Source: Candidatus Caenarcanales bacterium (GTDB lineage: Bacteria; Cyanobacteriota; Vampirovibrionia; 2-02-FULL-35-15). From it: a stretch of 64,000 bases of DNA. The DNA lies in assembly GCA_020050435.1 (NCBI GenBank), contig JAGVKQ010000005.1:1-64000 (forward strand), read 5' to 3'. The position numbers and the translations under genes are program-made. The notes under the pieces are model-generated. The model was not told where the DNA came from. It made no database searches and worked only from the letters and a program-made list of their open reading frames with translations. Position 1 is the first letter of the stretch. Each line of letters opens with the position of its first letter. This document shows, piece after piece, positions 5,320 through 53,480 of the stretch.

Positions 5320-5859
5320 TTACTTACACCCAACTTCCTGAACAATCATATCTATAGCTTCACGATCCAGATTCCACTTTCCGAGAGAATCTTTAAGTGG
5401 AATAGAATAAAATAACTCATTAACGATTTCTAAATCATTGTTTAAATCGGGTGGAATTAGAGATTGATATTTTAATTTTAAATCATTAAATTTCCCTGAA
5501 CACAGTTCATTTCGTAAGGCATCACCATTTTCTATTTTCATATAATTATTATGTGCAATAATTTTATGCCTGTAAGCAACAAGACAATAAGCTTTTAATA
5601 CAAAGCTCTCATCCCTATTTAATGGGCAATCATCATTTTTAACAAAGCTAGTGATACTTTTATAATAATTCCATTTTTTACAAAGTATTTTAGTTAAAAA
5701 AATTGTAGCAAATTCATAAAGTGCTTTATGCAATGTTCTTTGCTTAAGTGTTTCTTCTTCTTTCTGTTCTTTTAATATTTCTAATATATTTAAAAGATCT
5801 TGATATGTAGAACTTAGGTCAGGAGAAGCAATTTTTTCTTCAAAGTCGATTAAATCCAT
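5320..5859 (-). CDS. HEPN-like protein of unknown function
   Basis: 179 residues, mostly helical, without signal peptide. The stretch AYRHKIIAHNN (R...H, five residues between) resembles the Rx4-6H active site of HEPN ribonuclease-type domains, where a helix carrying (Y)R.K.IAH.. is typical. Many HEPN proteins are toxins or abortive-infection effectors. No nucleotidyltransferase (MNT) partner is adjacent. The gene lies about 230 bp outside the left att repeat of the tRNA-Arg element. A TAAAAT sits about 9 bases before ATG and no Shine-Dalgarno is seen. The family call rests on one motif and is tentative. Confidence 0.5.
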   Translation of the reverse strand: MDLIDFEEKIASPDLSSTYQDLLNILEILKEQKEEETLKQRTLHKALYEFATIFLTKILCKKWNYYKSITSFVKNDDCPLNRDESFVLKAYCLVAYRHKIIAHNNYMKIENGDALRNELCSGKFNDLKLKYQSLIPPDLNNDLEIVNELFYSIPLKDSLGKWNLDREAIDMIVQEVGCK

Positions 5860-6314: not shown

Positions 6315-7049
6315 TTATTGAAATGATGAACAAGGGTTTTTGTCTACTTTTAAAAATTTAATATCTCTTAAGTCAGTATATTTTGGATTTGCTTTTATAG
6401 TCAAATATTCATTCGCAAATTCAAGAGAAATTCTTTTAACAGTTCCCTTTGGGTAATGAATCTGTGGATTTGTTACAAACAGCCCATCTTCTTGGACTTG
6501 ACCAATTATTCCAGCTAAAGAAATGTAACTGCCATTGTGCTTTCCATAAATAGAATATAAAGCACCTAAATAAGCGGATCCATCTTCTGCAATTATTACT
6601 ACTTCACCATTGCAAGAATTTGAACAACTATTTGTAAATCTATCACAACCAACATACAAGCCTTTATGTGATGATTTTAAATCTGATTTAACTCTTTTTG
6701 CTTTACCAAAAGCAACAGGATTACCATTTTCATCATTTAATTCATATTTTAGATAGTCCCCAGCATTAGTAAAAATGAAATTTGAATCATCAACAGCTAA
6801 ATCCTTTAGGTATCCAGTAAGACCATCCCATAGGGATCCAGCAAGAGCAGTCCAAGGATATTTGAGATTTGTAAATCCATAAATTACATTATTAGCAACA
6901 ACAAAATTAAATCTTGCATTTTTGACTCCTGATATTTCTATATCACCAATATATAATCCTTCAGTTATCTTCTCAGCTGAAGCCATGTTTTGTTGAAAGA
7001 AAACAAACATAAACAAAATCAGTAATTTTATACTATGTCTATAACTCAT
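6315..7049 (-). CDS. Exported protein of unknown function (element cargo)
   Basis: 244 residues with a clear signal peptide (residues 1-26, SIKLLILFMFVFFQQ, likely cleavage after ASA). The mature part has repeated glycine-bounded beta stretches (GLYIGDIEISG, GLYVGCDRFTNSCSNSCNG), suggesting two related halves each starting with GLY(I/V)G. One half carries three closely spaced Cys. No enzyme motif is seen. It is the leftmost gene of the element, transcribed towards attL. No Shine-Dalgarno is visible before ATG. Confidence 0.65.
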   Translation of the reverse strand: MSYRHSIKLLILFMFVFFQQNMASAEKITEGLYIGDIEISGVKNARFNFVVANNVIYGFTNLKYPWTALAGSLWDGLTGYLKDLAVDDSNFIFTNAGDYLKYELNDENGNPVAFGKAKRVKSDLKSSHKGLYVGCDRFTNSCSNSCNGEVVIIAEDGSAYLGALYSIYGKHNGSYISLAGIIGQVQEDGLFVTNPQIHYPKGTVKRISLEFANEYLTIKANPKYTDLRDIKFLKVDKNPCSSFQ

Positions 7050-7451: not shown

Positions 7452-7667
7452 ATGGAATCAAATATCCCCACTATAAAACGAAGGAGTGACATCCACTGTG
7501 TTACTGTTCCCCCAGAGGAATGGGTTGATTTTGTGAAGCTAGCTAGAAGTAATTTTAGAAGTGTCTCTAGCTATTTGAGGCTATTAGTTAAAAATGATTT
7601 AAGCAAGGAAAGGAGAAAGAAGGAATACATGAAGTTTAAAGAATATGATGCGACTCTAGTAGGATAA
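7452..7667 (+). CDS. Small putative DNA-binding protein
   Basis: 71 residues from ATG 7452, which follows GGAG by 8 bases; an upstream GTG at 7446 is too close to it. Basic and helical, with VTVPPEEWVDFVKLARSNFR then SVSSYLRLLVKNDL. A short beta strand followed by two helices with an S-SYLR turn resembles ribbon-helix-helix copy-control or mobilisation accessory proteins. It precedes the primase gene by about 160 bases, so copy or replication control is a sensible guess. The fold is inferred by eye. Confidence 0.6.
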   Translation: MESNIPTIKRRSDIHCVTVPPEEWVDFVKLARSNFRSVSSYLRLLVKNDLSKERRKKEYMKFKEYDATLVG

Positions 7668-7673
7668 ACAAAA

Positions 7674-7700
7674 ACTCCACCAGGGTTAGTAGTGGAGTTA
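7674..7700 (+). terminator. Hairpin after the small DNA-binding gene
   Basis: A perfect 8-bp stem (AACTCCAC/GTGGAGTT, loop of 11) begins 7 bases after the stop codon. No U-run follows, so it may be a weak or factor-dependent terminator, an mRNA-stabilising hairpin, or part of a replication origin before the primase. The remaining bases to 7829 show no further feature. Confidence 0.35.
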
Positions 7701-7829
7701 GAAGATTAGAAACAATTCAAAATCAACAATTAAATTGTACACGGTTTTTCTAACTCCTTCAATAGATAAGTAATAAGAAAAGAGCACAGGGTTGTTCATA
7801 GGATTCTTATTACCAAAAAAGGAGAAAGA

Positions 7830-33026: not shown

Positions 33027-34607
33027 TTAAACACCCTTACTAGCTATAAAATCATCTTTTTGCACAAGAACTTTTTTACCAGCACTTTCAGCACTTACAT
33101 ACTTATTTAATGCATTTAAGTATGCTTTAGCTGAAGCTAGCATAATATCAGTATTTGCAGCATGACCACTATAAATAGCCCCACCTTCACTTCTAATACG
33201 AATAGTTACTTCACCGAGAGCATCAATTCCTTCAGTTACAGATTGAACTGAAAATTCTATTAGCTCATTCTGTACGCCCACGATTTTATTGATCGCTTTA
33301 TAAATGGCATCTACTGGACCGGTGCCAAGTGCTGAGTCTTTTATGAAAAGATTGTTATCAGTTTTCTTAAGACATATTGATGCAGTTGGAAGTCCTGTCC
33401 CACAAGCTATTTGTAAGGCTTCAATTTCATAATACGTTGTAGTTTCTGCAGTTCTTTGTTCATCACGAACAATGGATTCTAAATCTCTATCTTCTACTCT
33501 TTTTTTCTTATCTGCAATTTCTTTAAATCTTTCAAATGCTTTACTTAAATCTTCATCTGAAAGATGATATCCAAGTTCTTCTAATCTATCTTTTACAGCA
33601 TGACGTCCTGAGCGTGGACCTAAAGGTAACTTAGATGTAAGCAAACCTACATCTTCCGGATTCATAATTTCATAAGTTCTTTTATATTTTAAAAATCCAT
33701 CCTGATGGATGCCAGCCTCATGAGCAAATGCATTTGCTCCGACGATAGCTTTATTTGGCTGAACAAGCATATTTGTAAGTGTACTCACAAGACGACTTGT
33801 TCTATAAATCTGAGTGCTATCTACATTTGTAAAAAGATTTAAATGTGGTCTTGTTTTTAAAATCATTACGATTTCTTCAAGAGAACAGTTCCCTGCACGT
33901 TCTCCTATTCCATTTATAGTGCACTCTATCTGACGAGCTCCATTCATAGCTGCACTAAGAGAATTAGCTACAGCAAGACCAAGGTCATTATGGCAATGTA
34001 CAGAAATAATGGCTTTGTCTATGCTCTTTACATTTTCTTTAATCCCTTTAATTAATGCTCCAAATTCCAGTGGTACTGTGTACCCTACGGTATCGGGAAT
34101 ATTTAATGTAGTAGCACCAGCCTCTATAACCGCTTGTAATATTTCATATAAGAATTTTGGATCTGATCTGCCAGCATCTTCAGGTGAAAACTCTATATCA
34201 GGAGTAAATCCTTTAGCAAAAGCTACAGTTTCTACAGCGGTTTTGATAACTTTTTCACGAGACATTTTTAATTTATGCTCCATGTGAATATCACTGGTAG
34301 CTATAAATGTATGAATTCTTCTTTTTTTTGCTGGTTCAAGCGACTGAGCTGCTTTTTCAACATCTTCTTTTTTTGCTCTAGCAAGGGCACAGATAGTAGG
34401 TCCTTGTACTTCTTTACTGATAAGGTTTACTGCTTCAAAATCTCCAGGACTGGAAAATGGAAATCCTGCTTCTATAATATCTACACCGAGTTTTGCTAAC
34501 TGCTTAGCAATCTCTAATTTTTCTGGGACATTTAATGTAGCCCCAGGAGATTGTTCTCCATCTCTTAAGGTAGTGTCGAAAATATATATTCTATCTTTGT
34601 TTTCCAT
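33027..34607 (-). CDS. leuA: 2-isopropylmalate synthase
   Basis: 526 residues, full length: catalytic TIM barrel with [13 protein letters not shown] at residues ~10-22, [14 protein letters not shown] with the metal-binding HxH, and [12 protein letters not shown] linker and the C-terminal LeuA dimer/regulatory domain (~395-510, [35 protein letters not shown]) follow, implying leucine feedback inhibition. It condenses acetyl-CoA with 2-oxoisovalerate, the first step of leucine synthesis. AGAGGG precedes the ATG. A leader peptide and attenuator lie just upstream. No leuBCD in the window. Confidence 0.97.
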
Positions 34608-34624
34608 TGTGCCCTCTTTAAAAT

Positions 34625-34699
34625 AAAAAACCCCTTAAAACCATTAGCTTTAACCACATAAGATATTTTCTTACATGATTTTTAGCCGAGGTTAAGGAG
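34625..34699 (-). promoter_or_regulatory. leu attenuator: terminator with leader-codon arm
   Basis: On the minus strand the RNA segment CUCCUUAACC (34699-34690), inside the leader reading frame, can pair with GGUUUUAAGGGG (34642-34631; two U bulged) just before U6, forming a terminator. A 9-bp hairpin CAUGUAAGA/UCUUAUGUG lies between them. GGUUAAAG (34655-34648) can pair with the same leader arm (7 of 8) as a competitor. A ribosome stalled at the leucine codons would mask the leader arm and allow read-through into leuA. Confidence 0.65.
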
Positions 34700-34714
34700 T
34701 AAAAGTTTTTTCAT
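34682..34714 (-). CDS. leuA leader peptide (MKKLLLLNLG)
   Basis: Ten codons with five Leu (CTT TTA CTC CTT ... CTC), followed by TAA. It lies 75 bases before leuA. The Leu run and the following terminator are the hallmarks of ribosome-mediated attenuation. No clear Shine-Dalgarno; TACAAT lies about ten bases upstream, so the transcript may begin almost at the ATG. Confidence 0.7.
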   Translation of the reverse strand: MKKLLLLNLG

Positions 34715-34745
34715 ATTTTTCAATATTGTAACATGCTTTAGGTCT

Positions 34746-36275
34746 TTAACCTATCTGACAATGAGTCCTAAATAGCTCATGTAATTCCTTAGCCTTCTTA
34801 TCATAGGCATCTTTGTCTTTCCAGGTATTTCTGGGGATTAAGATTTCACTAGGTACACCAGGGCAAGAAACAGGAATGGAAAGACCAAAATTTGATTCTT
34901 TCTTAGTTTCAATACTTTTTAATGTGCCATCTAATGCTGCAGTTATTATGGCTCTAGTTATAGAAAGCTTCATTCTATTTCCTATACCATAAGGCCCACC
35001 ACTCCAGCCAGTGTTAACTAACCAAACATCTACATTATGTTTTTTGATTTTTTCACCGAGCAGTTTTGCATAAGTGCTAACAGATAATGGCATGAAAGGT
35101 GCACCAAAACAAGGACTAGATGTGGCTTGAGGTTCTTTTATTCCTTCTTCTGTGCCAGCAACTTTTGCTGTGTAACCGCAAATAAAATGATCCATAGCTT
35201 CTTCATATGAGAGTTTTGATACTGGAGGCAAAACACCGAAAGCATCACAAGTAAGCATAATTATGTTTTTAGGATGGTGACCGTACCCATCAGTAGTCAT
35301 ATTTGGAATATATGAAACAGGATATGATGCTCTTGTATTTTCAGTAATGGAAGCATCATCAAAATTTACTTCTCTCGTTTCTGGATCAATAACTACATTC
35401 TCAAGTAATGCCCCGAACTTATTAGATGCTACATAGATTTCAGGTTCAGTTTCAATTTTTAATTTAATAGCTTTAGCGTAGCAGCCACCTTCAAAATTAA
35501 ATACTCCATCATCACTCCACCCATGTTCATCATCACCAATAAGTGTTCTTTCTATATCAGCAGATAGAGTGGTTTTACCAGTGCCAGAAAGTCCGAAGAA
35601 TACTGCTACATCATCTTTTGTTTTTCCATAATTAGCAGATGAATGCATAGTCATAATTCCGCGCTGCGGAAGTAAAAAATTCATAATGCTAAACATGGAT
35701 TTTTTAACTTCGCCAGAATAATGTGTTCCACCTATTAAAACAGTTTTATCTTTAAAGCTAATAATTACAAATGAACCTGAATTAGTACCATCCGATGATG
35801 GATCTGCTTTAAAGTTTGGCGCATGGAGGATATTAAACTCAGGAGTAAATTCTTTATCTTTAGAAGGAATAAACATTGTATGAGCAAAAAGTGCACCTAC
35901 TGCTTTTTCAGAAGTAGTTCTTACTGAGATTCTATATCTTTTATCAGCACCTACATAACAATCTTTTATAAATAGATCTTTTCCTTCTAAATATTTGAGA
36001 ACTTTAGCTTTAAGTGCTAAAAACTTATTTTCATCAAAAGGCTTATTTATGTCTCCCCAGGCAATTGTATTTTCTGAAACACTATCTTTTACTATAAATC
36101 TATCTTTTGGTGATCTTCCAGTATGTGGAGCAGTGTTTATAACGATAGGACCATTTTTGCTAAGGACACCTTCATTTCTTTTTACAGCTTCTTCGACGAG
36201 TTTGGGGATTGAGAGGTTAATAAATTTCATTTGTTTTTTAATTGATTCTTGTATCATAAATGTCTCCTTTGACAA
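34746..36275 (-). CDS. pckA: Phosphoenolpyruvate carboxykinase (ATP)
   Basis: 509 residues, close to the usual ~525. HTGRSPKDRFIV near the N-terminus, the metal/substrate motif GGTHYSGEVKKSMF, HSSANYG, the P-loop FFGLSGTGKTTLS, DDEHGW and NTGWSGGPYG are all present and specific for the ATP-dependent enzyme. It converts oxaloacetate and ATP to PEP, ADP and CO2, or the reverse in fermenters. AGGAG lies 7 bases before the start, with TATAGT further upstream. It is transcribed in the same direction as leuA, 32 bases before the leader peptide. Confidence 0.97.
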   Translation of the reverse strand: MSKETFMIQESIKKQMKFINLSIPKLVEEAVKRNEGVLSKNGPIVINTAPHTGRSPKDRFIVKDSVSENTIAWGDINKPFDENKFLALKAKVLKYLEGKDLFIKDCYVGADKRYRISVRTTSEKAVGALFAHTMFIPSKDKEFTPEFNILHAPNFKADPSSDGTNSGSFVIISFKDKTVLIGGTHYSGEVKKSMFSIMNFLLPQRGIMTMHSSANYGKTKDDVAVFFGLSGTGKTTLSADIERTLIGDDEHGWSDDGVFNFEGGCYAKAIKLKIETEPEIYVASNKFGALLENVVIDPETREVNFDDASITENTRASYPVSYIPNMTTDGYGHHPKNIIMLTCDAFGVLPPVSKLSYEEAMDHFICGYTAKVAGTEEGIKEPQATSSPCFGAPFMPLSVSTYAKLLGEKIKKHNVDVWLVNTGWSGGPYGIGNRMKLSITRAIITAALDGTLKSIETKKESNFGLSIPVSCPGVPSEILIPRNTWKDKDAYDKKAKELHELFRTHCQIG

Positions 36276-45770: not shown

Positions 45771-47129
45771 ATGGATGTTAATGGATCACAACCTGTAGGT
45801 AGTTCTGTTGCAAAGGCTGGACCTGCCCTTAATCTATCAAACCAAGGAAAATCTTCACAAACGTTGACTGAAGTTGTTGATCGATTTCTAGTAGAAGTTC
45901 AAAAAAAAGATTCCCTTGCTAAAGAAAGAACCTTTCAATATATATTAAATGACTTAATGCCTGCTTTAAGAAGATATTCACAATCTGGATTTGAAAATAT
46001 AGATGAAGTTAAAAATTCAGTTCAACGTTCTGGGTTAGATAGAACTAATTTACAATATTCTTTTTCTGATATTCAATCTATTGAGCCCGCATCGAGGAGA
46101 TTAAAGAAATTACTAATACGTTTAAATAAAGAATTACTTACACCAAACAATTTTTTTATTTGGGATATGGCAAATTATGGCTCACCTTCATTAACCAATG
46201 TCAAAATATGTTTTATAGTATCTGAGCAAAATCAAATAATTTTAAATAAACCTATAATAGTTTATATGGGGCTTCCTGTTTACAAACCTGATAATGTTCA
46301 ACAACCCGTTGGAGTTGCTAAATTTGAAGAAGAGTCAATCTTCATTGATTTAGAAGAGGCAAATTTAAAAGCTCAAGATCCGTGGAAATCTAAAAATTTT
46401 CAAGGAGATCCAAGGGATAAAAGATTTTTTGATGCTGTATGGGGATTAAATGATGCTTTAAGAGTTAAATATGGCACCCCAGAAAGATTATTAGTAGAAC
46501 AGGTTAGATCTACTCTTACCGAGGAAATGCAGCACATTAGAGATAATAAAAAAGTAATGGATCTAATAGTAGAGGGAAGTGAAAGAAACGGCCAAGCAGT
46601 TAATCTAGCTCATGTTTTATTTGAGCCTACATTTGCTGAGACAACTCAAAAAGGAAGCTTTATAAATCATAAATTTTTACACTCAACACAAAATCGAAAT
46701 GCTTTTCAAGGATTGTTTCCAAGCCCTCCTGCTTCTTATAAAATTCAAGCCATGTCGTGGGCTACTTTTAATGTTGCTAGCAGTGTAGTTGAATCATCTG
46801 GAAATCTTGCACAATGTGCAATAGCTGATCCTAAATTAAGTATACTTAAGTGGCTAAATTATTTTGGACAATTTGAAACTAATATGGTTTATGGAATGAT
46901 GGGAGCATGGAATTTATATATGCTTAGAGCTAATTTAGATGGTTCTTTAGGACAGACGAATCTGTTGCCAGATCAGAATATAGGCTTAATGGAACCGCTT
47001 GCCTATGCTGACATAGGCTTAGAGTGTACTTCTCTAAATGATCAGATCTTAAGTGCTGCCGCAGAAAGAACTTTTAATTCTCAATTTGTAGATAGATTAG
47101 ATTCGGAAACGTTTAAACAAGTAATTTAA
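45771..47129 (+). CDS. Protein of unknown function
   Basis: 452 residues, no signal peptide, mixed alpha/beta. STLTEEMQHIRDNKKVMD (~245-262) followed by ETTQKGSFINHKF resembles an EExxH-like metal site; that is weak. No family recognised. The start has no Shine-Dalgarno, with a TTATATTC stretch about 15 bases upstream. A single gene before the 87-residue protein. Confidence 0.65.
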   Translation: MDVNGSQPVGSSVAKAGPALNLSNQGKSSQTLTEVVDRFLVEVQKKDSLAKERTFQYILNDLMPALRRYSQSGFENIDEVKNSVQRSGLDRTNLQYSFSDIQSIEPASRRLKKLLIRLNKELLTPNNFFIWDMANYGSPSLTNVKICFIVSEQNQIILNKPIIVYMGLPVYKPDNVQQPVGVAKFEEESIFIDLEEANLKAQDPWKSKNFQGDPRDKRFFDAVWGLNDALRVKYGTPERLLVEQVRSTLTEEMQHIRDNKKVMDLIVEGSERNGQAVNLAHVLFEPTFAETTQKGSFINHKFLHSTQNRNAFQGLFPSPPASYKIQAMSWATFNVASSVVESSGNLAQCAIADPKLSILKWLNYFGQFETNMVYGMMGAWNLYMLRANLDGSLGQTNLLPDQNIGLMEPLAYADIGLECTSLNDQILSAAAERTFNSQFVDRLDSETFKQVI

Positions 47130-50906: not shown

Positions 50907-50941
50907 AGCTGTTTGTTGAATGGGTGGGGACCTTAATTTAC

Positions 50942-51472
50942 ATGCAAAATGATTTTCAAGGAATTAATTTAAATGCTGCTCTTGAAAGAATAAGGGAAAT
51001 AAATTCTCTTTCTTTTAGAGTAACTGGTTTTCCTATTTCATTTCAAACTGCTGTTAAAGGAACATTCTCAAATGTACTAAATGATATGCAAGCTAAAAAG
51101 CTTGCTTTTTCTCCTCTTGTAGAGCAAGCAGCAAAAGAAAATAATATTGATCCAGCCATCGTCCATGCAGTCATAGAGCAAGAATCAGCATATGATTCTA
51201 ATGCTGTGTCCAAATCAGGTGCTCTGGGTTTAATGCAGCTTATGCCAGGCACTGCAAAGCAAATGGGAGTTAAGGATTCATTAAATCCAGAACAAAACAT
51301 AAGGGGTGGTACTAAATATTTATCTTCTTTACTCAATCATTACCATGGTAATTTAACCTTAGCACTATCGGCTTACAATGCTGGACCGAATAATGTAAGT
51401 AAGTATGGAGGAGTCCCACCATTTCGAGAAACACAAAAATATGTGAAAAAAATAATCAGCAAACTTTCATAG
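50942..51472 (+). CDS. Lytic transglycosylase (SLT family) of the flagellar cluster
   Basis: 176 residues from ATG 50942; a GTG at 50924 adds six residues. SLT domain: ENNIDPAIVHAVIEQESAYD with the catalytic Glu, SKSGALGLMQLMPGTA, NIRGGTKYLSSLL and LALSAYNAGPNNV. No signal peptide, as for enzymes exported by the flagellar secretion system. Between flgC and fliE it presumably opens peptidoglycan for the rod, the job FlgJ or its substitutes do. Confidence 0.9.
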   Translation: MQNDFQGINLNAALERIREINSLSFRVTGFPISFQTAVKGTFSNVLNDMQAKKLAFSPLVEQAAKENNIDPAIVHAVIEQESAYDSNAVSKSGALGLMQLMPGTAKQMGVKDSLNPEQNIRGGTKYLSSLLNHYHGNLTLALSAYNAGPNNVSKYGGVPPFRETQKYVKKIISKLS

Positions 51473-51935: not shown

Positions 51936-53480
51936 ATGGTTCTAATTGGCGCTGGCGTTGTAATGGTAGTAATTACCCTAATCATTATTTTCTTTTCATA
52001 TTCAAACAGTACTAGTAAAGGGCTTTCTGTGGATCTTGTTAAAGGAATTGAACAGGATAGAGCGTTTGAAATAATATCAAAATTAAAAATAGCAGAAATA
52101 AATGCAGATATTCAAGAAAGTGAAAGACCAGGAAAAGTAAACGTTAAAGTTTTTGAAAAAGATTTTGATAAAGCAGCAATAGCATTGTCTAGAAGTGATC
52201 TTCTTCAAGAAGATGGTTTCAATCTTTTTGATAAAAGTGACTGGGCTGCTTCAGACTATGATAAAAGAATTAAAATGATGAGAGCCGTAAATGGTGACCT
52301 TTCCAGAATAGTAAGTAGAATGACAGGAATTAAATGGTCTACCGTCCGCGTAAACATTCCAGAGCCACAACTTTTTTCACAATATCAAGCTGCTACAACA
52401 GCGACCGTTCAAATTGAGCTTGTTGATGAAGGAGTAAAACTTTCAAGAGGACAAGTAAAGAGTGTTATTAATTTATTGATTGGATATGTACCAAACCTTC
52501 AAAAAAACAATATTTCTATTATTGATACAGCTGGTCAGACCTATTCAGCAGTAGAGTCTGATGAATCAAATGCTAGTGAACTACTTGAAGAATCAGAAAA
52601 AGTAAATAAGGTTATTCAAAAGAAAATTGAAGAGTATTTAGAACCACTTATTGGATATAACAATTACATAGTAAGAGTTAGTTCAGAAATCAGTAGGAAA
52701 AAAGTTGAAGAAAGTGCTACTACCTTTACAGATGGTGCAGTAGGACAAGAACAAATTGGTGATGAGCGTTTAGGAGCTCCACAAGGTCAGGCTTTCGTAG
52801 AAGGTCAGGAAGCTGCTCCAGCTGGAGACTCTAGCATGAGTTATACAAGAACAAATAGAGTTACGCAGAGATATCCAAGCTATAAACAAAAAACAACAAG
52901 TACGCCAGCAGGCAGAATTAGTAAAATTACAGTAGCTGTAGCAATTAATGATGGCATACCAGCAGGTATTTCTTTAAAACAAATTAGAGAAGGTGTTGCA
53001 GCTATCACCAGTCCTAATACATCAGTAGATGATGTAAAAATTACAATTGCAGAGTTTGCAACAGGAAAATCAAATATAGCTCATGGTTCAAAAACAACTA
53101 ATATAGTGCCTGGTATTGGTGCATCACTAGGTCAAGCAACATCATTCTTTAAAGGACTTCCAAAGTGGATGAGTTTTGTAATTGCAGGGTTTGGCTTACT
53201 TTTACTACTTGGTTCTTTTGGTAGAAGACCAGCCACAATTCCTCAAGAAAGTACAATTGCTCAGATTAACCAATCAATGCAAAGACAGCAACAATTCCAA
53301 AAACCAGGATTACAATTAGGTGCAGGAGAAGATTTCCCACAACAATATGAAAGCACCCAACAACTTTCAGCTAAAGAACCAGATTTTACTGGCATTATTT
53401 CAGGATTAAAAGAAGCAGCGGAAGAAAAGCCAGAGTTTTTAGCAAATAAACTTCAAATATGGCTTGAAGATGGAAGATAA
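51936..53480 (+). CDS. fliF: Flagellar MS-ring protein FliF
   Basis: 514 residues from ATG 51936. TM1 (MVLIGAGVVMVVITLIIIFFSY) comes right at the start, then ring-building motifs (DLVKGIEQDRAFEIISKL, RVNIPEPQLFSQYQAATTATV, VKSVINLLIGYVPNLQKNNI, VSSEISRKKVEES), TM2 (~403-425) and the C-terminal FliG-binding end (EKPEFLANKLQIWLEDG). The C-terminus appears intact. The start is odd: no Shine-Dalgarno, and the same frame upstream is interrupted only by TAA at 51924. Translation may re-initiate here. Confidence 0.88.
   Translation: MVLIGAGVVMVVITLIIIFFSYSNSTSKGLSVDLVKGIEQDRAFEIISKLKIAEINADIQESERPGKVNVKVFEKDFDKAAIALSRSDLLQEDGFNLFDKSDWAASDYDKRIKMMRAVNGDLSRIVSRMTGIKWSTVRVNIPEPQLFSQYQAATTATVQIELVDEGVKLSRGQVKSVINLLIGYVPNLQKNNISIIDTAGQTYSAVESDESNASELLEESEKVNKVIQKKIEEYLEPLIGYNNYIVRVSSEISRKKVEESATTFTDGAVGQEQIGDERLGAPQGQAFVEGQEAAPAGDSSMSYTRTNRVTQRYPSYKQKTTSTPAGRISKITVAVAINDGIPAGISLKQIREGVAAITSPNTSVDDVKITIAEFATGKSNIAHGSKTTNIVPGIGASLGQATSFFKGLPKWMSFVIAGFGLLLLLGSFGRRPATIPQESTIAQINQSMQRQQQFQKPGLQLGAGEDFPQQYESTQQLSAKEPDFTGIISGLKEAAEEKPEFLANKLQIWLEDGR

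Follow-up and report, generated by a model that had tools for sequence, protein, structure and literature searches.

A candidate leucine attenuator before leuA in a Melainabacteria lineage, with leader leucine codons in the terminator arm

Background

Enterobacterial leuABCD (leuL) has the classical attenuator layout, with mutually exclusive segments and an antiterminator placed between the leader and the terminator. Its leader peptide carries a run of leucines, a terminator precedes leuA, and rare leucine codons act as the control codons (PMC1183508). A Leu-rich leader and a terminator also control branched-chain synthesis in S. aureus, where the response of the ilv-leu attenuator peptide to leucine depletion and to leader mutations has been demonstrated; this system is conserved among staphylococci, has a predicted separate antiterminator and is under CodY control too (PMC5794164). 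In the ilvB leaders of actinobacteria (Corynebacterium, Mycobacterium, Streptomyces), runs of mixed Ile, Val and Leu codons in a short ORF overlap the terminator hairpin and its poly-U (Seliverstov et al. 2005, PMC1262725). A later model of Corynebacterium ilvBNC includes both a separate antiterminator and an anti-antiterminator (PMC11857589), and the ilvBNC leader peptide, in the account of Morbach et al. 2000 cited there, is without a ribosome binding site; in Streptomyces coelicolor, codon changes in the ilvB leader had no effect (PMC1262725), which is a warning from the ilvB case. The actinobacterial LEU element also places a run of Leu codons before leuA, in a base stem, where they pair with the leuA Shine-Dalgarno sequence in a conserved pseudoknot and without a U-tract terminator (PMC1262725). 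At pil1 of S. gallolyticus, the translating ribosome directly prevents the terminator hairpin and no antiterminator is invoked, the pilus genes being switched by repeat-number phase variation and not by amino-acid supply (PMC3894217). For cyanobacteria, a 2016 survey reported no reliable attenuation data (PMC4833913), and a device comparable to the one described here was not found for Cyanobacteriota or Melainabacteria in the open-licence literature searched.

The element considered here lies between pckA and leuA on the minus strand of a 64,000-nt window (the whole stretch of DNA analysed, from a Candidatus Caenarcanales bacterium). With leuL and the S. aureus system it shares a Leu-rich leader and a terminator, with actinobacterial ilvB a codon run that overlaps a U-tract hairpin before a branched-chain gene, with the LEU element a run of Leu codons in a stem before leuA, and with pil1 a predicted direct effect of the ribosome on the hairpin. 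It differs from leuL, whose layout was compared by description and not by alignment, in that the Leu codons themselves are the terminator arm; from ilvB in gene, in codon mixture and in phylum, so that the likeness is likely convergent; from the LEU element in having a U-tract terminator; and from the S. aureus system in having neither its conservation nor its separate antiterminator. The first-pass annotation of this DNA, made from the letters alone, had set the element apart from the classic four-segment design. That contrast stands, since the 5' arm corresponds to codons 6-9, within the region that a ribosome would cover, and the competitor pairing is weak; codons overlapping a terminator, however, were already known from actinobacterial ilvB (PMC1262725).

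Results and discussion

Organisation of the pckA-leuA spacer

The spacer is 138 nt long in this genome, and its parts and flanking genes are the following.

33027-34607, minus strand: leuA, 2-isopropylmalate synthase, 526 aa, above the curated cut-offs of NF002086 and TIGR00973
34612-34617, minus strand: Shine-Dalgarno-like AGAGGG of leuA, from the sequence
34620-34630, minus strand: U-tract UUUUUUAUUUU (DNA TTTTTTATTTT), from the sequence; predicted site of premature termination
34631-34642, minus strand: terminator 3' arm GGTTTTAAGGGG (RNA GGUUUUAAGGGG), from sequence and folding
34648-34655, minus strand: competitor segment GGTTAAAG (RNA GGUUAAAG), from duplex energies and masked folds
34652-34680, minus strand: central 12-bp hairpin within the terminator stem, from the predicted fold
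34690-34699, minus strand: terminator 5' arm CTCCTTAACC (RNA CUCCUUAACC), codons 6-8 and the first base of codon 9
34682-34714, minus strand: leader ORF MKKLLLLNLG, 10 codons and TAA, with Leu at codons 4-7 (34705-34694) and 9 (34690-34688)
34725-34733, minus strand: extended -10 element TGTTACAAT, TG at 34733-34732 and TACAAT at 34730-34725, a consensus match only
34746-36275, minus strand: pckA, ATP-dependent phosphoenolpyruvate carboxykinase, above the TIGR00224 cut-off, the same-strand upstream neighbour of leuA

The leader reads ATG AAA AAA CTT TTA CTC CTT AAC CTC GGC TAA (34714-34682). A short ORF rich in the product amino acid thus stands before the biosynthetic gene, as in amino-acid attenuators generally, and leucine is the amino acid cognate to that gene, which the curated models identify as a true leuA. 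The coordinates given in the first-pass annotation are right, and three of its points agree with the sequence: the 10-codon leader followed by a terminator ahead of leuA, the position of the terminator 5' arm inside the leader codons, and the closeness of the leader start to its -10 box, the TACAAT hexamer with its upstream TG being 10 nt ahead of the ATG. Neither a -35 element nor a Shine-Dalgarno sequence for the leader could be recognised. From the position of the putative -10 element, transcription would start at about 34719-34718, leaving a 5' leader of about 4 nt. The central hairpin is a possible pause or nucleation hairpin in the folding model. As the U-tract ends only 12 nt before leuA, there is scant space for a separate leuA promoter downstream of it.

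None of the Rfam leader families matched the leuA element at E-values up to 5, and at gathering thresholds only tRNA was detected in the window. The element, found in a single genome, most likely works like a leader-peptide attenuator, and we do not place it in any named RNA family.

Strength of the terminator and chance of a Leu-rich leader

Between the leader ORF and leuA lies a predicted intrinsic terminator, composed of the U-tract and a hairpin of -23.7 kcal/mol, compared with -10.2 +/- 2.7 for dinucleotide shuffles (z -5.07, none of 200 shuffles being as good); the entire 138-nt spacer has a modest excess of folding over its shuffles (z -2.0, 6 of 200). Hairpins followed by a T-run are rare in the window, where our scan returned six. 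One of these few sites, on the minus strand at 7660-7720, has a compact hairpin CTCCACTACTAACCCTGGTGGAG with TTTTTG after it and lies far upstream of the gene at 6315-7049. A second candidate in the window, MICKLKSLLFLLL, which overlaps a hairpin with a T-run at 51106, was discarded, being located within a transglycosylase gene (50924-51472).

The main rival explanation is an ordinary intrinsic, perhaps two-way, terminator of pckA, in which the A-tract and the pyrimidine arm AAAAAACUUUUACUCCUU would read as MKKLLLL by chance; leuA would then be transcribed by partial read-through or from an upstream promoter, with no sensing of leucine. The pckA stop codon is on the same strand, about 30 nt ahead of the leader, and an A-tract joined to a pyrimidine arm is biased toward Lys and Leu codons. 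The frequency of such an ORF was measured against several null models. An ATG ORF with four consecutive Leu codons occurred in 0.105% of 20,000 dinucleotide shuffles of the 138-nt spacer and in 0.01% of local mononucleotide shuffles. Because terminator arms beside a U-tract are pyrimidine-rich, we also applied a stricter null in which only the 21-nt arm region was shuffled and the frame was kept fixed; even with local composition so kept, LLLL or at least five Leu in seven codons appeared in only 0.44% of cases, which argues against the plain terminator. In favour of it, a Leu-rich ATG ORF enters the hairpin at about 2 of the 87 remaining terminator-like sites as well (3 of 88 over all sequences scanned, the leuA site included), and the chance rate given a terminator is therefore about 2%. 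The position before leuA comes in addition to this rate, and Leu codons that match leuA would be a coincidence if the terminator served pckA alone; such a terminator would also largely silence leuA, with little room for a promoter of its own past the U-tract. Taking these points with the comparison of relatives below, we consider the plain terminator unlikely.

The codons are fitted to the stem. CTC accounts for two of the five Leu codons of the leader and for 3.8% of the Leu codons in the genes of the window (chance 1.3%), and a fold of this stability is reached by just 1.2% of synonymous leaders sampled according to codon usage; these figures alone do not settle whether the leader or the terminator came first. 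The observed layout before leuA is thus real and more than chance, and it is found in one genome only.

Ribosome masking and the proposed mechanism

To represent translation, the transcript was folded with a 28-nt ribosome mask at successive A-site codons. The pairing probability of the basal stem is 0.96 without a ribosome and 0.81 with the A-site at codon 2, and it falls to 0.00-0.04 for any A-site codon from 3 to 11. With the stem so lost under the mask, ribosome occupancy alone should prevent termination, as the first-pass annotation had proposed and as these folds suggest (at most 0.04, compared with 0.96).

The reading that we prefer, with a probability of about 0.6, is that of a minimal two-state ribosome-mediated transcription attenuator, which would raise leuA expression when charged leucyl-tRNA falls. 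The transcript would begin a few bases upstream of the leader ATG, and on this nearly leaderless start a ribosome would load. When leucine is sufficient, the ribosome would read the ten codons and be released at UAA, and the freed arm CUCCUUAACC would pair with GGUUUUAAGGGG, so that RNA polymerase would halt at the U-tract, ahead of leuA. Under leucine shortage, the ribosome would wait on codons 4-9 and cover the 5' arm, no terminator would form and leuA would be transcribed. A separate antiterminator would not be required.

A classical attenuator was also considered, in which, on stalling, an antiterminator GGUUAAAGC would pair with the 3' arm GGUUUUAA and keep it from the terminator. The masked folds do allow the competitor to pair with the 3' arm once the 5' arm is covered, and UUAAAGC is predicted to pair with GGUUUUAA when the A-site is at codons 7-9; this pairing is AU-rich and weak, at codons 4-6 it gives way to another fold, and it would be unnecessary where the ribosome already covers the 5' arm. 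As the first-pass annotation had noticed, this segment is also able to pair with the 5' arm, at -6.2 to -6.8 kcal/mol, which is weak beside the -10.5 kcal/mol of the true 3' arm. No homologue in which covariation could be sought was found in the family. We regard the classical arrangement as improbable, and the competitor GGUUAAAG is probably not a main player in the two-state device, at most an aid.

Kinetic model

The behaviour of the leader was simulated by kinetic Monte Carlo, with published rates as starting values (PMC1183508). Read-through increased as the decoding of Leu codons slowed in every setting tried. The best setting (RNA polymerase 25 nt/s, initiation 5/s, release 5/s) took it from 0.01 to 1.0, while with RNA polymerase at 50 nt/s and release at 1/s its range was narrow, 0.54-0.66 or 0.71-0.99. 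At these published rates unstarved read-through was already 0.54-0.71, because the ribosome at the stop codon also covers the terminator 5' arm, as in the masked folds. The simulated device works well only with fast release or slow RNA polymerase, and in such a model switching would benefit from pausing at the central hairpin.

Since read-through in the simulation varies strongly with the rates of initiation and release, and since in the masked folds the stem is blocked wherever the ribosome stands between codon 3 and the stop, the leader could instead sense the general state of translation (supply of ribosomes, antibiotics, growth state) and not leucine. A precedent for this is the terminator of pil1, which is destabilised when a ribosome reads or ends close to its hairpin (PMC3894217). 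Half of the ten codons are Leu codons, however, four of them consecutive and two belonging to a rare type, and the regulated gene would be leuA; we therefore hold a general sensor of translation to be very improbable, more so than the classical arrangement.

Near-leaderless starts in the lineage

In the window, -10-like hexamers lie at gaps of 6-7 nt before the start in 9 of 54 starts, compared with about 1.7 expected from a background of about 0.84 per gap. Loci of the same family have 23 such hexamers at gaps of 6-8 nt (background 2.8 per gap), and a small control of Clostridium and Syntrophomonas showed no -10 peak 6-8 nt before starts. This suggests that many mRNAs are leaderless in this Melainabacteria family, and the putative near-leaderless start of the leuA leader would be in keeping with that habit. 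Examples of -10-proximal starts are found upstream of the genes at 1653-2249, 5320-5859, 45771-47129 and 51936-53480.

Relatives and conservation

The nearest named relatives are genomes of Candidatus Melainabacteria, a group beside Cyanobacteriota, with LeuA identities of 80-85%. A Leu leader with a terminator upstream of leuA was found at none of ten same-family loci, nor in the further Melainabacteria loci, and the 150-nt element searched in 11 family genomes matched only itself, the remaining matches being short and AT-rich. The first-pass annotation had held that the lack of a leader peptide or pairing in relatives would refute its proposal. Neither was seen in any relative examined, which goes part of the way against the proposal and is in favour of a plain pckA terminator. 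The relatives compared belong to other genera (about 80-85% LeuA identity), and the absence therefore points to a lineage-specific element and does not disprove a function. No similar leader or attenuator was seen at ilvB, leuC and ilvD of the same genome.

The pckA gene is kept directly upstream of leuA in several genera of the family (33027-36275 in the window; loci L006, L010 and L007), with a spacer of 0 to more than 500 bp. This spacer differs in each relative: it is absent in genome G006, where the TAA is directly followed by ATG, and in G007 and G002 it consists of unrelated sequence, 460-520 bp long. Most of the relatives' pckA genes are without a hairpin and T-run downstream, and this, with the rarity of such terminators in the window, argues against an ordinary pckA terminator. 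As the element has no homologue in the family and the spacer is variable, it appears on present evidence to be a recent, lineage-specific feature.

Leu-rich leaders before leuA in other phyla

Across phyla, Leu-rich leaders were present in 7 of 72 leuA intergenic regions, the leader of the window included, compared with 1 of 131 for other genes of the same loci (Fisher p 0.003). Planctomycetota, which share a peptide pattern, and Sulfurovum are among the groups represented. Such leaders before leuA thus look like a recurrent solution, with leuA as a habitual target. Similar Leu-rich leaders (e.g. MMHLLFLALLDLFLLVGDGS) lie about 85-155 nt before leuA at four Planctomycetota loci (L099, L101, L111 and L112). 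A CCTAGG comes after the leader and is found again further downstream, in a hairpin with a T-run, and these sequences make a conserved leuA attenuator likely for Planctomycetota. More Leu-run ORFs before leuA (e.g. MKKIITTQTIFTKDTSLLLLLARQ) were observed in Sulfurovum (L103 and L106), Verrucomicrobia (L105) and Phycisphaerae (L082), some of them with a Shine-Dalgarno sequence.

Conclusions

There is a precedent for each element of the design: overlap of codons and terminator, a terminator destabilised by the ribosome, and a leader peptide that lacks a ribosome binding site. What is new is the phylum and the combination of these elements. The full description, that of a minimal, near-leaderless Leu sensor whose codons are the terminator arm, with no antiterminator, of recent origin in one lineage of Melainabacteria, and the first amino-acid attenuator of Cyanobacteriota and Melainabacteria, is tentative and in our estimate falls a little short of an even chance. 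The design is economical, about 95 nt in which the same bases are sensing codons and terminator arm, so that an independent origin from an ordinary terminator is easy to imagine. If it is a working device, a case in the sister group of the cyanobacteria would add a major lineage to those with leader-peptide control.
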